In this document: in pieces, positions 29,743 through 35,618 of the stretch | Layout: every line of letters begins with the position of its first letter | Numbering within the stretch: position 1 is the first letter of the stretch | Assembly (NCBI GenBank): GCA_021778805.1 | Contig: JAJYBV010000024.1 | Location: 1,236-40,194 of the forward strand | From: Chloroflexota bacterium | Lineage (GTDB): Bacteria; Chloroflexota; Ktedonobacteria; Ktedonobacterales; JACDGC01 | Direction: 5' to 3' | Length of the DNA: 38,959 bases | Notes under the pieces: model-generated | What the model saw: the letters and a program-made list of their open reading frames with translations, nothing else | What the model was told of the DNA's origin: nothing | Databases searched by the model: none | Program-made: the position numbers and the translations under genes

Positions 29743-29927
29743 TTTTCTGCGGTAAATATCCGTGGTTTTACCTGAATTTCCGAACTTTTCCATAACTTGT
29801 GTGCGCCTGCTTTCATGATACAATACACATGAATGAAATACGCCGCTTTGCGTTGTTCAACGTTATTCGTTTGCAGCGGCTGAAATCGATGGCAGATTCG
29901 ACATTACCTTACGGGGAGCGCACAAGC

Positions 29928-31373
29928 ATGATTGCTTCAGAAATTATTCATTTATTTGAATCGGCAGTTGGCCCCATGCGCGTTATCACTCATCCCGCCG
30001 AGCGCAAAGCTTTCGCTTCTGATGCGCTGCTGCATTATCATGAACCCCCGGAACTGGTTGTTTTCCCGGAAACAACTGAACAAATAAGCTCTATCGTTAA
30101 AATCTGCAATACCCATCACATACCGTTTACGCCGCGCGGTTCGGGAACCGGTCTTTCAGGCGGTGCAACCCCATCTCCGGAATCTGTGGTGATTGCCACT
30201 GCTAAAATGCGGAAAATACACCGAATCGATATCGCAAATCGGCTGGCGGTGGTGGATCCCGGTGTGATTAATAGCGACATCACTAAAGCTGTGGCGTCTG
30301 CCGGATATTTTTATGCGCCGGATCCTTCCAGTCAATCGGTTTCTACAATTGGCGGCAATGTTGCTGAAAACGCCGGCGGAATACACTGTTTTAAATATGG
30401 ATTTACCGTAAACCATATTCTTGGCGCACAAATAGTACTGGGCAATGGTGATATTGTTGAAGTTGGCGGTGAGGCAATGGATATGCCCGGTTATAATTTG
30501 CTCAGCGTCATTGTGGGGTCTGAAGGCACATTGGGTATAGTTACCTGCGTAACGGTAAGGCTGACTGCACAGCCGCAAAGCATTGTAACTGCGCTGGTTC
30601 CTTTCGCCTCCATGGAATCTGCCGGCGCGGCGGTTTCAGCCATTATAGCCGCAGGTATTGTTCCAGCCGCAATCGAACTGATGGATCAGCTGACGCTGCA
30701 AGTTTGTGAAAACACGATTCACGCCGGATACCCCGAAAACGCAGCGGCAATTTTGCTGGTTGAATTAGATGGGCCGCAAGCCGAAGTTGAAGCTAGAATA
30801 GCGGATGTTGCCAAAATTTGCCGAAACTATGAAGCGCTGAATTGGAAGATTGCCACTTTACCCGCGGAACGCGCGCTTTTGTGGAAAGGCCGCAAAGCTG
30901 CGTTTGCTGCGCTGGGACAGCTTGGCGCGCACTTATTTTTGCATGATGGTGTTGTTCCCCGCACAAAACTGCCGGAAGCGCTGAAACGTTTGACAGATGT
31001 TGGCCGCCGTTCCGGTTTGTGGATTGCCACGGTTCTGCACGCTGGAGATGGCAACTTGCACCCGGTAGTGCTGTATAACGATGATCAGGAGGCGCTGGCG
31101 GAACAAGTTGCCGCAGATATTTTAACTATGTGTGTTGAATTAGGCGGCAGCATAACAGGCGAGCATGGCGTTGGCCTAGATAAACGTGAGTTTATGAATG
31201 TGATGTTTACCGAAAATGATATGGCGGCGCACCAAAAGTTGCGTTTGGCGTTCGACCCATTAGGCATCAGTAATCCGGGGAAAATATATCCTGCGCCAAA
31301 TATGTGCGGGGAAGGCGCAAAAAAATACAAACAACATCCGCTTGAACAAAACGGAACTATTACCAGATTGTGA
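29928..31373 (+). CDS. glcD: FAD-linked oxidase, glycolate oxidase subunit GlcD-like (start chosen at GGGGAG-preceded ATG; longer ORF from 29799)
   Basis: PRGSGTGLSGGATPSPESVVIATAKM, YAPDPSSQSVSTIGGNVAENAGGIHCFKYG, GEHGVGLDKREFM. Confidence 0.92.
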   Translation: MIASEIIHLFESAVGPMRVITHPAERKAFASDALLHYHEPPELVVFPETTEQISSIVKICNTHHIPFTPRGSGTGLSGGATPSPESVVIATAKMRKIHRIDIANRLAVVDPGVINSDITKAVASAGYFYAPDPSSQSVSTIGGNVAENAGGIHCFKYGFTVNHILGAQIVLGNGDIVEVGGEAMDMPGYNLLSVIVGSEGTLGIVTCVTVRLTAQPQSIVTALVPFASMESAGAAVSAIIAAGIVPAAIELMDQLTLQVCENTIHAGYPENAAAILLVELDGPQAEVEARIADVAKICRNYEALNWKIATLPAERALLWKGRKAAFAALGQLGAHLFLHDGVVPRTKLPEALKRLTDVGRRSGLWIATVLHAGDGNLHPVVLYNDDQEALAEQVAADILTMCVELGGSITGEHGVGLDKREFMNVMFTENDMAAHQKLRLAFDPLGISNPGKIYPAPNMCGEGAKKYKQHPLEQNGTITRL

Positions 31374-31390
31374 TTTTTTCAAAAATTTTA

Positions 31391-31698
31391 TTATCAGGTG
31401 TTTTAAGTCAGCGACCCCATGCCTAAAGGCAGGGGTATGTGAAAGCTTACTCCGATGCTGACCAGATCCCCTGGAAACAGGGAGCCGTTATCAGGAAGTG
31501 TTCAAATTCGCACCTTCAGATGGCATCTCAGTCTGAAGCTCTGCAAGTTCAACGTTAAACAGGTTGATGGGGTGTCAAAGCCAGTGCGTTGAGCATAGTA
31601 CCGCCTGCTAACCCGATCGAGGGAACCATGTACCGCCAGTGGCAACACTGGTGTGAGGCCAATTACGGCCCCTTCGCAAGAAGGAAAGGAAAAAACAA
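31391..31698 (+). ncRNA. omega RNA (HEARO-type) of the IscB element, including a presumptive 16-nt guide at about 31391-31406
   Basis: Directly 5' of iscB. Stems: GTCAGC(31407)/GCTGAC(31462); CCCTG-GAAA-CAGGG; CTTCAGA/TCTGAAG; CCAGTG-GCAA-CACTGG; CCTTC-GCAA-GAAGG just before the iscB start. Confidence 0.85.
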
Positions 31699-33048
31699 AT
31701 GTCACGAGTCTTTGTTGTCGATATGCAACAGCAGCCACTCACTCCCTGCACACCAGCACGGGCGCGCTGGCTGTTGACGCAAAAGAAAGCCGCTATCTGG
31801 CGCAGATACCCTTTCACCATTATCGTGAAGGGAGCCAAGCCAGATGCCCTTGTCCCTGAAATGGTGTGCAAGCTCGATCCAGGCAGCGAAACCACCGGTA
31901 TTGCCGTTCTCAACCAACAATCGGGAGAAGTGCTCTGGGCAGGGGAATTGACGCATCGCGGGCAAGCTATCAAAGAACGGCTGGACCAACGCCGAGGCTG
32001 TCGAAGAAGCCGATGCCAGCGCCATACACGCTATCGAGAGCCGCGATTTCTCAATCGGACTCGTCCCAAAGGATGGCTGCCACCATCGGCGCAAAGTCGA
32101 GTAGCAAATATCCATACCTGGGTCAATCGCATTCGCCTATCCTGTCTTATTGCTTCATTGAGTATGGAGTTGGTAAAATTCGATACCCAATTGATGCAGC
32201 ATGCGGAAATTAGTGGTGTGGAATATCAGCAAGGAACCCTGGCAGGATATGAAACCAGGGAATACTTGCTCGAAAAATGGAACCGAGCCTGTGCCTATTG
32301 TGGGGCAACCCATCTTCCTTTGCAAATAGAGCACATCGTCCCCAAATCGCGTGGGGGAAGCAATCGCATTGCCAATCTTGCCATCGCCTGTGAAGCCTGC
32401 AACCTGAAGAAAGGCGCCCACACCGCCGAAGCATTTGGGTTTCCTAATGTGCAGCAGCAAGCACAACAGCCATTGAAGGATGCGGCTGCGGTCAACGCCA
32501 GCAGATGGGCTGTGTGGCGTGTGTTGACCCAAACAGGGTTGCCCGTTGAAACAGGCAGTGGGGGATTGACCAAATTTAATCGAACCCATCGCAATCTGCC
32601 AAAGACCCATTGGCTGGATGCCAGTTGTGTCGGCCACTCCACGCCGGAAACCCTCCACTGGAAGCAGGTACATCCGTTCCTGATAACAGCAATGGGACGG
32701 CATAGTCGGCAGATGTGTCGAACGAATGCGTTTGGAGTTCCAGACAAAGCGCCCAAAGCAACCAGTGTCGTTGGAGGGTTCCGAACCGGAGACATGGTCA
32801 AAGCAGTCGTGCCCGAAACGAGTAAAAAAGCAGGGGTGTATGTGGGTCGGATTGCCATCCGGGCAACAGGCTACTGCAATATCAAAACGGGTACCGAAAC
32901 TATTCAAGGCATCCATGTTCGCTATTGCACGGCCCTGCATCGAATGGACGGGTATTCCTATTCTTTCAAGAAAGAGAGGCTCACCTGACGGTGAGCAGGC
33001 ATTTCCTCCCCATTCCGCAAGGAAGGGGTCTTCATGCCTGAGCTTTAA
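31407..33048 (+). mobile_element. IscB-carrying IS200/IS605-related element (no tnpA inside)
   Basis: omega RNA + iscB + 3' hairpins (GCTCACC-TGAC-GGTGAGC 32979-32996; CCCC-a-TTCC-GCAA-GGAA-GGGG 33008-33028). It lies between glcD and glcE. Boundaries approximate. Confidence 0.75.
31699..32988 (+). CDS. iscB: RNA-guided endonuclease IscB (PLMP, split RuvC, Arg-rich bridge helix, HNH)
   Basis: PLTPCTPARARWLLTQKKAAIWRRYPFTIIVKG; RuvC-I KLDPGSETTGIAV; bridge RRGCRRSRCQRHTRYREPRFLNRTRPKGWLPPS; RuvC-II SMELVKFDTQLMQ; HNH CAYCGATHLPLQIEHIVPKSRGGSNRIANLAIACEACN; RuvC-III HWLDASCVG. Confidence 0.96.
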   Translation: MSRVFVVDMQQQPLTPCTPARARWLLTQKKAAIWRRYPFTIIVKGAKPDALVPEMVCKLDPGSETTGIAVLNQQSGEVLWAGELTHRGQAIKERLDQRRGCRRSRCQRHTRYREPRFLNRTRPKGWLPPSAQSRVANIHTWVNRIRLSCLIASLSMELVKFDTQLMQHAEISGVEYQQGTLAGYETREYLLEKWNRACAYCGATHLPLQIEHIVPKSRGGSNRIANLAIACEACNLKKGAHTAEAFGFPNVQQQAQQPLKDAAAVNASRWAVWRVLTQTGLPVETGSGGLTKFNRTHRNLPKTHWLDASCVGHSTPETLHWKQVHPFLITAMGRHSRQMCRTNAFGVPDKAPKATSVVGGFRTGDMVKAVVPETSKKAGVYVGRIAIRATGYCNIKTGTETIQGIHVRYCTALHRMDGYSYSFKKERLT

Positions 33049-34275
33049 ATGAATGTAAACGCTGAACAAGAGTTATTCGCGCGGTTTGCGAATATTGTAA
33101 CCGAACCATCTGAAAAAGACGCTATTTTAGGTGTTGCGCCAAAAGTTATTGTATCACCGGCGAATACCGAACAGATTTCCGCAATTTTAGCTTTTGCCGC
33201 AGAAAATAATCTTGCCGTTATACCACGCGGCGCCGGCGCACAAATGGCTATTGGGTCTGCTCCATCTCGCGCAGATATTCTTTTGGATTTATCGAAAATG
33301 AATACCATCATTGCATATGAGCCGGGAGATATGACAATTACTGCACAGGCCGGAACTTCTATTGGAGCCATTCAGCGCGCGGCCGCAGAGTATCGGCAGT
33401 TTTTAGCAATAGATCCCGATGTGGAGGAAAGCGCAACGATTGGCGGTATTGCCGCGGTTGGGATAAACGGTACACGCCGAATGAAATATGGCGGCGTATA
33501 TGATCAGATACTCGGCGCGCAGTTTGTGTTAGCTGATGGAACGATTGCCCGCGCAGGCGGCAAAATTGTGAAAAACGTTGCAGGATATGATATCGCGCGT
33601 TTGCTGTGCGGATCTTTGGGTACCTTGGCGGTGTTAACCGAGGTAACATTCCGGTTGCAGCCAAAACCGCCGTTCTCACGCTGGATTGGTGTTCCCTCGC
33701 CAACTTTAGAGGCTGCGCAAACCGTTGTTCAGCTTATACGCCAGTCGCAGTTATCACCATCTGCAATTGAGGTTGTGCCGGCGGCAGATGGCTTTGTAAC
33801 CGCGCTGTCTTTTGAATACACTGCGGCGGCAATTCAAGAGCAAGTGACGGCGCTGCGACAGCTTTTAGGCAAAAAATATGGCGCATGGTATATTGCTAAA
33901 CCCAATTTTTCATTGCCCAAAAACGCTTTTGCGCTGAGAATTTCTGCGCCGCCTTCGCAAACCCTCCCCATTTTGCAAAAGGTCCTGGAAATATCTGAGC
34001 CTATGCATATCGATTGGGTGGCGCATGTGGGATTTGGCGCAATTGAAACGTCGGTGAATGCCGCGCCAGACGCCGTTGTGCGCCTTACCGGGCAGCTGCG
34101 GCCGGTTTGTGAAGCTGCCGGCGGCGCGCTGGTTGTTTCCGGAGATGGTTTAAGCGCACTGCCAGAGCTGGATCCTTGGGGAACAGTTAGTTCCGCGCCG
34201 TTGATGCGCTCGGTTAAATCTTATTATGATCCTAAATCTATTTTGAATCCCGGCCGATTTGTCGACGGAATCTAA
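33049..34275 (+). CDS. glcE: FAD-binding oxidase, glycolate oxidase subunit GlcE-like
   Basis: PANTEQISAILAFAAENNLAVIPRGAGAQMAIG, KIVKNVAGYDIARLLCGSLGTLAVLTEVTFRL. Confidence 0.88.
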   Translation: MNVNAEQELFARFANIVTEPSEKDAILGVAPKVIVSPANTEQISAILAFAAENNLAVIPRGAGAQMAIGSAPSRADILLDLSKMNTIIAYEPGDMTITAQAGTSIGAIQRAAAEYRQFLAIDPDVEESATIGGIAAVGINGTRRMKYGGVYDQILGAQFVLADGTIARAGGKIVKNVAGYDIARLLCGSLGTLAVLTEVTFRLQPKPPFSRWIGVPSPTLEAAQTVVQLIRQSQLSPSAIEVVPAADGFVTALSFEYTAAAIQEQVTALRQLLGKKYGAWYIAKPNFSLPKNAFALRISAPPSQTLPILQKVLEISEPMHIDWVAHVGFGAIETSVNAAPDAVVRLTGQLRPVCEAAGGALVVSGDGLSALPELDPWGTVSSAPLMRSVKSYYDPKSILNPGRFVDGI

Positions 34276-34298: not shown

Positions 34299-35618
34299 AT
34301 GCAAACTGAAAAGAATGACTCAACACAGCATTTGGTTCACAAACCGGATAAAGAATTGCTGAACGCATGCATACATTGCGGATTTTGCCTCACTTCGTGC
34401 CCCACCTATGTGTTGTGGGGTGATGAATCGGATTCGCCACGCGGCCGTATTCAATTTATGAAAATGCTTGCCGATGACGAGTTGCAGCCCGATAGGCAGA
34501 TGACACAGCACTTTGATAGCTGTTTAGGCTGTGAAGCTTGCGCAACCGCGTGTCCTTCCGGCGTGCAGTATGGCGCGCTGATTGAGGAAACTCGCGCGTA
34601 TGTTGCAAAAACCGTACCGCGGCGCTTGCCAGACGCCGCGTATCGCGCGCTGCTTTTCAGTCTATTTCCTTACCCCAAAAGATTGCGAGCGATGAAGCCG
34701 TTTTTATGGCTTTACCAAAAAAGCGGAGTTAGCGCAGCCGTTCGTTCGCCGGTTGGAAAAGTGCTGCCGCGGCGTCTGCGCGCCTTAGACGCGGTTTTAC
34801 CTTCGGTGCGGCTGCGGCATGACCAAATACCAGTTATCACTCCGCCTAAAACTGCGCGGCGTTTGCGCGCCGGCATGATAACCGGTTGTGTGCAAGACGC
34901 ATTTTTTAGCGATGTCAATGCTGCAGCTGTTCGTGTGCTTACCGCGGAAGGTGTGGAAGTGATTACCCCGCCAAATCAAGGCTGCTGTGGCGCGCTGCAC
35001 ATACACTCCGGACGCGAAGAAGGCGCTATGGCAATGGCGCGCAGTATGATAGATATTTTTGAGCGCGCGCAAGTAGATGTTATCGTTATTGATTCCGCCG
35101 GATGCGGATCTACTCTAAAAAGGTACGATCGCTTGCTGCAAGGTGACGCGCAATATGCCGAACGCGCAAAAGCGTTTGTCGCCAAGGTAAAAGATATTTC
35201 GGAGGTTTTAAGCGAATTATCTGTAACGGTGCCGCGCCATCCCATACCGTTTAAAGTAGCCTATCACGACGCCTGCCATCTTAGCCATGCGCAGAAAATT
35301 CGCGAAGCGCCGCGAAATCTGTTAAAAACAATTCCCCAATTAGAGGTATTGGAAATACCGGAAGGCGATATCTGCTGTGGCAGCGCCGGAATCTATAACC
35401 TAACCGAGCCGGTTGCCGCTGAAGAACTGGGAATTAGAAAAGCGCGGAATATCCTTGCAATTCAACCTCAAGCATTGGTTGCATCTAACCCGGGATGCCT
35501 GCTGCAAATAAGCGCATCACTGAAAAAAGAAGGTATTCGCATACGTACCTATCATCCTATTGAGTTGGTAGATATGTCTATTCGCGGCGCGCTGCCAAAA
35601 GAACTATCTGCGCCATGA
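34299..35618 (+). CDS. glcF: Glycolate oxidase iron-sulfur subunit GlcF-like
   Basis: CIHCGFCLTSCPTY and CLGCEACATACPSGVQYG 4Fe-4S motifs; GCCGALHIHSG and CCGSAGIYNLTEP cysteine-rich domains. Confidence 0.93.
   Translation: MQTEKNDSTQHLVHKPDKELLNACIHCGFCLTSCPTYVLWGDESDSPRGRIQFMKMLADDELQPDRQMTQHFDSCLGCEACATACPSGVQYGALIEETRAYVAKTVPRRLPDAAYRALLFSLFPYPKRLRAMKPFLWLYQKSGVSAAVRSPVGKVLPRRLRALDAVLPSVRLRHDQIPVITPPKTARRLRAGMITGCVQDAFFSDVNAAAVRVLTAEGVEVITPPNQGCCGALHIHSGREEGAMAMARSMIDIFERAQVDVIVIDSAGCGSTLKRYDRLLQGDAQYAERAKAFVAKVKDISEVLSELSVTVPRHPIPFKVAYHDACHLSHAQKIREAPRNLLKTIPQLEVLEIPEGDICCGSAGIYNLTEPVAAEELGIRKARNILAIQPQALVASNPGCLLQISASLKKEGIRIRTYHPIELVDMSIRGALPKELSAP

Follow-up and report, generated by a model that had tools for sequence, protein, structure and literature searches.

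The window examined here, a 38,959-nucleotide stretch of contig JAJYBV010000024.1 (assembly GCA_021778805.1), belongs to a 3.25-Mb draft genome of a Chloroflexota bacterium and carries a glc gene cluster that is interrupted, between glcD and the ATG of glcE, by an IscB/omegaRNA element at 31407-33048. According to our best reading, to which we give a probability of roughly 0.6, this element is of a known kind, and its right end also serves as a portable, hairpin-bridged ribosome-binding site. The features of the locus are listed below (SD, Shine-Dalgarno; TAM, target-adjacent motif; ORF, open reading frame; nt, nucleotides; aa, amino acids).

29838-31373, plus strand: glcD, FAD-linked subunit (TIGR00387, 498.6 bits; Pfam FAD_binding_4 and FAD-oxidase_C; the ORF start may be earlier)
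31374-31406, plus strand: left flank, read from the sequence, with the displaced native SD-like AGGTG (anti-SD pairing -6.4 kcal/mol)
31407-31632, plus strand: omegaRNA scaffold (HEARO RNA) and element left end (RF02033, 117 bits, E 5e-25, full model 1-211)
31699-32988, plus strand: iscB, 429 aa, RuvC/HNH nuclease with its catalytic motifs retained (NF040563, 419.6 bits; Pfam RRXRR and HNH)
32968-32979, plus strand: purine tract AAGAAAGAGAGG, the proposed element-borne SD (anti-SD pairing -6.5 to -7.1 kcal/mol)
32979-32996, plus strand: right-end hairpin 1 (fold and consensus fold), whose loop holds the IscB stop TGA at 32986-32988
32997-33039, plus strand: right-end terminal hairpin 2 (fold; the homologous hairpin covaries in 27 relatives)
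33034-33048, plus strand: short ORF ATGCCTGAGCTTTAA abutting the glcE ATG, read from the sequence and preceded by AAGGAAGGGG in the hairpin arm
33040-33048, plus strand: 9-nt tail from the terminal hairpin to the start codon, the right end of the element (boundary from 58 relatives)
33049-33052, plus strand: ATGA, predicted TAM, being the glcE start codon plus one base (RTG in 58/58 relatives; covariation with an IscB motif; measured IsrB TAMs, PMC9581776)
33049-34275, plus strand: glcE, 408 aa (PRK11282, 162 bits; FAD_binding_4; start matching homologues such as that at L065)
34299-35618, plus strand: glcF-like iron-sulfur subunit (PRK11274, 307.5 bits)

An IscB element had been recognized here in the original prediction, and the profile matches agree: the NF040563 score lies far above the cut-off of 175 bits, the protein can be aligned to solved IscB chains via its catalytic motifs, and the omegaRNA, found in full length directly 5' of iscB, exceeds the gathering score of RF02033. 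The tnpA gene of an autonomous IS200/IS605 element is absent from the element, and a Y1_Tnp search of the genome gave no match on the contig of the window. Judged by its sequence, this is an IscB/omegaRNA (OMEGA, HEARO) insertion element without a transposase gene of its own. It shares with such elements the RuvC and HNH domains of IscB, the upstream omegaRNA, an NTGA-like motif 3' of the guide in the left flank and the scarless mode of insertion, and differs in that it lacks tnpA and has two right-end hairpins. One full-length Y1 transposase, and no other, was found in the genome (C107:9476-9823; L017, L139); it is situated about 3 kb from a copy of the right end and is a candidate for moving these elements in trans.

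The left flank (...TTATCAGGTGTTTTAA) stops at 31406 and the right flank (ATGAATGTAAAC) begins at 33049. The left edge was placed where the match to the HEARO model begins (GTCAGCGACC), and the right edge is the base preceding the RTGA target, as in 58 relatives, which narrows the originally proposed extent of 31391-33060 to 31407-33048. TTTAA occurs at both edges (TTTTAA in the left flank, CTTTAA in the right end), so that the placement of the cut is uncertain within 5 nt; every placement, however, yields the identical rejoined product. The flanks were quoted correctly in the original prediction: joined, they read AGGTG-TTTTAA-ATG, and the rejoined junction is TTATCAGGTGTTTTAAATGAATG.

In about 20 genomes from the same order glcD lies next to glcE, usually no more than tens of bases away and often with a clear SD before glcE. 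The glcE leader reads TAA-AGGAAGTGTGTC-ATG at L058 and TTTTAATGGGAGCAAATG-ATGAACGTC at L065, where the protein starts with MNV as does GlcE in the window. The interrupted state is therefore derived, and the element splits the two genes as had been proposed. This comparison holds at the level of gene adjacency only, as relatives other than the same-genus genome are about 31-45% identical in protein sequence. For the manner of insertion, 10 joined flank pairs were searched against 47 genomes of the order. For five loci a related species had the site empty, its sequence continuous across the junction with neither duplication nor loss; the RTG was kept at the empty site in four of the five pairs, the fifth (L116) having diverged at the motif. 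Scarless insertion, part of the original prediction, is well supported by these five pairs, which are relatives of the element and not the glcE site itself. Excision, which had been predicted to restore the operon, would plausibly do so. From known IscB biology, the 3' part of the left flank is expected to be the omegaRNA guide. IscB should then cut the emptied site (left flank plus ATGA) in line with the general OMEGA model, and this would favour retention of the element. The same use of a flank-derived guide and of cutting at the emptied site was shown for TnpB in the retention (gene drive) model of IS605 elements (PMC11870625); for the IscB of the window it is proposed by analogy.

What determines the position of the element can be read from its relatives. 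IscB relatives were gathered from GTDB genomes and from 40 relatives of this genome, they were oriented and their ends were read. The right end halts directly before RTG in 58 of 58 elements (ATGA 24, GTGA 21, ATGG 12, ATGC 1), that is, before RTGA or ATGG in 57. The register was set by eye, and an RTGR within about 10 bases of the hairpin is expected by chance in about 15% of elements; a placement found in 57 or 58 of 58 is not chance. The fourth base of the target, moreover, goes with two residues in the target-reading C-terminal region of the IscB encoded by the same element. Among the 58 proteins, IQGI, VQGI and other xGI motifs pair with A, and TDI, EDI, SDI and FDI (xDI) with G. The exceptions L102 and L128 fit after a register shift of 2-3 nt, and at L089 QHI accompanies ATGC. 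The residue pair before the isoleucine may constitute a simple TAM code. In the window the motif is IQGI (within 32840-32960) and the target ATGA. Measured TAMs of IsrB systems are NTGA, NTG and NTGG, the fourth base being read by Q326 (PMC9581776); the TAM set is alike and a similar region covaries with A or G in the present IscBs, whereas IsrB lacks the HNH domain that the IscB of the window has. Because of the RTG rule, the match of IQGI with ATGA and the IsrB TAMs, it is well supported by sequence comparison that the ATGA of glcE is the motif read by the matching IscB. The element would have inserted scarlessly 5' of a pre-existing ATGA, and its position is explained by the glcE start codon and the next base being this target.

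Insertion at this point displaced the native SD-like AGGTG 1.64 kb from glcE, in agreement with the original prediction. The 16S rRNA of the genome ends in the standard GGATCACCTCCTT (standard anti-SD), with which AGGTG pairs at -6.4 kcal/mol; 1.1% of shuffled sequences pair as strongly. It had also been stated that the end of the element offers no obvious SD. This is correct for the last 20 nt, where anti-SD pairing amounts to only -1.9 kcal/mol, but the purine tract AAGAAAGAGAGG at 32968-32979 (-6.5 kcal/mol), which is followed by two abutting hairpins and the 9-nt tail, was overlooked. This tract, 5' of the terminal hairpins, is likely to be a replacement SD. No intrinsic terminator was found on the plus strand of the right end.

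The same arrangement recurs in the relatives, most bacterial ones having an SD-like motif at the right end that is bridged by a hairpin to the target RTG. Folding the 75 nt up to the target proved a noisy way of searching for it, as the SD pairs with the tail, and the conserved hairpin arm was used as an anchor instead. AAGGAG-type motifs occur at a single place, which adjoins the terminal hairpin on its 5' side and falls into bins about 54-69 nt ahead of the target. The strict motif was found there in 29 of 57 right ends (against 3.9% of coding windows) and a loose one in 43 of 57 (against 13% of coding windows). The hairpin itself is conserved as a structure, with double changes at 10 of 12 pairs among 27 relatives. 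Measured along the sequence, motif and RTG are 53 nt apart; with the hairpin looped out, the median distance is 9 nt (interquartile range 7-11, n=80 right ends that were selected for having a motif). In the T4 genes 38 and 25 a hairpin reduces the spacing between SD and AUG from 22 to 5 and from 27 to 11 nt, respectively (PMC3014915). These leaders likewise have an over-distant SD that an intervening hairpin brings to 5-11 nt from the AUG, and the spacing in the predicted structures of the right ends falls into this range of about 5-11 nt. The T4 examples are leaders of phage genes, whereas here the end of a mobile element would serve any gene that lies behind the target motif. The layout of SD-like motif, hairpin and RTG is conserved in the aligned ends, and this suggests that ribosomes would use the bridged SD. 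The motif is present in Bacillota and in most relatives from the order of this genome, and is absent, as judged by eye, from the few cyanobacterial, Methanosarcina and acidobacterial right ends in the set.

When a covariance model of the right end of the window was searched through the genome, 10 copies were found, all of them 0-37 nt before the start of a gene on the same strand. The genes are glcE and those for an S9 peptidase, a HIT protein, an acyltransferase, a moxR-like AAA protein, FtsH, a geranylgeranyl-reductase-like protein, RsfS (rsfS), PfkA (pfkA) and an unknown membrane protein. A complete IscB gene is attached to the copy in the window and to none of the other nine. In 8 of the 10 copies the gene starts at the target motif or within a few nt of it and the tract is intact (-4.7 to -7.1 kcal/mol); in the remaining two, which have a degenerate tract, the start follows after another 25 or 37 nt. 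Some of the genes, such as pfkA and ftsH, are likely to be essential. The original prediction had offered impaired translation of GlcE or its dependence on sequences of the element. Dependence is the better supported half; impairment finds no support in a family whose right ends have a hairpin-bridged SD-like motif and whose copies precede likely essential genes.

In 10 related genomes, all compared as drafts, 64 right ends were examined, 15 with and 49 without an adjacent IscB. An ORF of at least 100 codons begins exactly at the target in 23 of the 49, and these 23 have the stronger SD tract (-7.0 versus -4.7 kcal/mol). The comparison was tried with two windows; within-genome permutation gave p 0.0025 and, for the window of 50 nt, p 0.010. 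ORFs were the main basis for assigning gene starts, profile matches being used only for the ten copies in the own genome. For full elements, 17 of 52 targets are start-like, against 8.8% of intergenic RTGR and 3.7% of all RTGR sites; the intergenic value is the fairer null and was relied upon. Right ends are thus concentrated at gene starts, and this is consistent with the right end being kept by selection after the decay of the element. In the genome of the window, most of the right ends without IscB (L142-L150) begin sharply at [AC]AGAAAG, in the final codons of the lost IscB ORF, and this points to a defined unit rather than a random deletion.

Such a concentration might be a plain effect of the target site: elements land at RTGR, insertions within genes are purged, and the gene downstream is poorly translated or lost, the right end having no role in translation. 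The target motif alone predicts many hits at start codons, as the 8.8% of start-like intergenic RTGR illustrates, and in relatives a good many of the insertions are not adjacent to a start codon. We regard this explanation as possible but doubtful. The observed 17 of 52 is about 3.7-fold above the intergenic null, and the explanation accounts neither for the fixed SD-like motif 5' of the hairpin and the bridged spacing of 9 nt, nor for right ends before pfkA and ftsH, nor for the stronger tract where the target is a start codon. It is unlikely, too, that the purine motif is a transposition signal in the DNA, for binding or cleavage of the folded single strand, and that its likeness to an SD is accidental. 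Its place at the element end beside a hairpin, where recognition of the IS200/IS605 type occurs, would suit such a signal. However, cyanobacterial, archaeal and acidobacterial elements have a similar hairpin and lack the motif, which argues against a universal DNA role; in the two copies of this genome with a start 25-37 nt away the tract has degenerated, and the association with start codons survives the within-genome permutation.

Translation of glcE could also be coupled to that of an upstream frame, if ribosomes that finish IscB or the short right-end ORF (ATGCCTGAGCTTTAA after AAGGAAGGGG) re-initiate at the glcE ATG. The mini-ORF at 33034-33048 does end right at this ATG, 14 of 58 relatives have an IscB stop that overlaps the target codon, and some copies in the genome continue in frame into the gene behind them (those at the POP, HIT and reductase genes) or reach a stop a few bases short of it. 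In the window, however, the IscB stop lies 60 nt upstream of glcE and most relatives have no overlap, while neither the relatives nor all of the copies share the start of the mini-ORF, whose SD and ATG are within the hairpin stem. Coupling is accordingly considered quite improbable. The mini-ORF was rejected as the main mechanism on account of its start codon, which is not conserved among relatives, and an IscB stop overlapping the target was rejected as a general rule, being limited to 14 of 58. In these 14, of which L025, L036, L110 and L134 are examples, the IscB frame continues across the right-end hairpin to a stop that overlaps or adjoins the target codon (TGATG or RTGA), a layout suited to translational coupling.

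Finally, the insertion would be neutral if the element were removed from the RNA as a self-splicing intron, restoring the glcE leader. Removal of this kind is known for some IS605-related elements, the IStrons, which combine a group I intron with IS605 and in this way render an insertion within a gene harmless. In 31300-33200, HEARO was the only Rfam match above its gathering score, and no group I intron or other self-splicing family was among the matches to E=1. As no intron was found in the element, this explanation was rejected and we hold it to be extremely improbable; in place of an intron, the route proposed for the element of the window is a replacement ribosome-binding site.

We therefore return to the right end as a ribosome-binding site. 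The insertion moved the native SD of glcE away, and the right end would compensate for this with its SD-like purine tract: the terminal hairpins would loop out the intervening bases and leave about 9 nt between the tract and the start codon, an arrangement like that of T4 genes 38 and 25. Once elements decay, the right end would be retained where it has become the translation start region of a gene. In its widest form the proposal is that IscB right ends evolved as portable, hairpin-bridged ribosome-binding sites matched to a start-codon target, that this makes insertion tolerable and that decayed ends are kept by host genes, some of them likely essential; for this form we consider the chances even.

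Several observations weigh against these proposals. The insertions in relatives that lie away from start codons are numerous, and the position at start codons can follow from the RTGR target and selection against hits in genes alone. AAGGAG could be conserved for a role of the DNA in transposition, and the right ends without the motif make the arrangement less than universal. The copy in the window is not the best example of a bridged SD, as its tract AAGAAAGAGAGG is weaker than the AAAGGAG of relatives and two hairpins have to be bridged. The right ends used for the bridged spacing were chosen for their motif, the gene calls and null sets are crude, and several elements come from one genome, where copies are not independent. 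In addition, an empty glcDE site was not found at the nucleotide level, the same-genus genome having no GlcE match. For the right-end arrangement of SD and hairpin no description was found in the open-licence literature searched, which is weak evidence of its novelty.

If the reading is correct, target preference, an RNA-guided nuclease and host translation are linked, in that the motif read by IscB is a start codon of the host and the element mends its own damage. It would explain how elements are tolerated directly before start codons and would provide a route from transposon ends to host regulatory sequences. Also, the loss of the native SD is not by itself a safe reason to call an insertion of this kind disruptive.

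Other parts of these elements were encountered as well. Mini-elements at L187, L205, L213, L231 and L233 (G014) and L248 (G036) consist of a full HEARO RNA and a right end, with no adjacent IscB; they are guide-RNA-only relatives that are presumably served in trans. A second HEARO clade in the genome of the window is represented by four elements (L010, L011, L012 and L013 on C142, C57, C42 and C18) that start with GTGAACAACCACTGAG or similar, are nearly identical to each other and in some cases carry parts of IscB at the end of a contig. At L002 (C151:26523-26604), 82 nt of the omegaRNA stand alone; they are 95% identical to the copy in the window and lie shortly before an apparent gene start.
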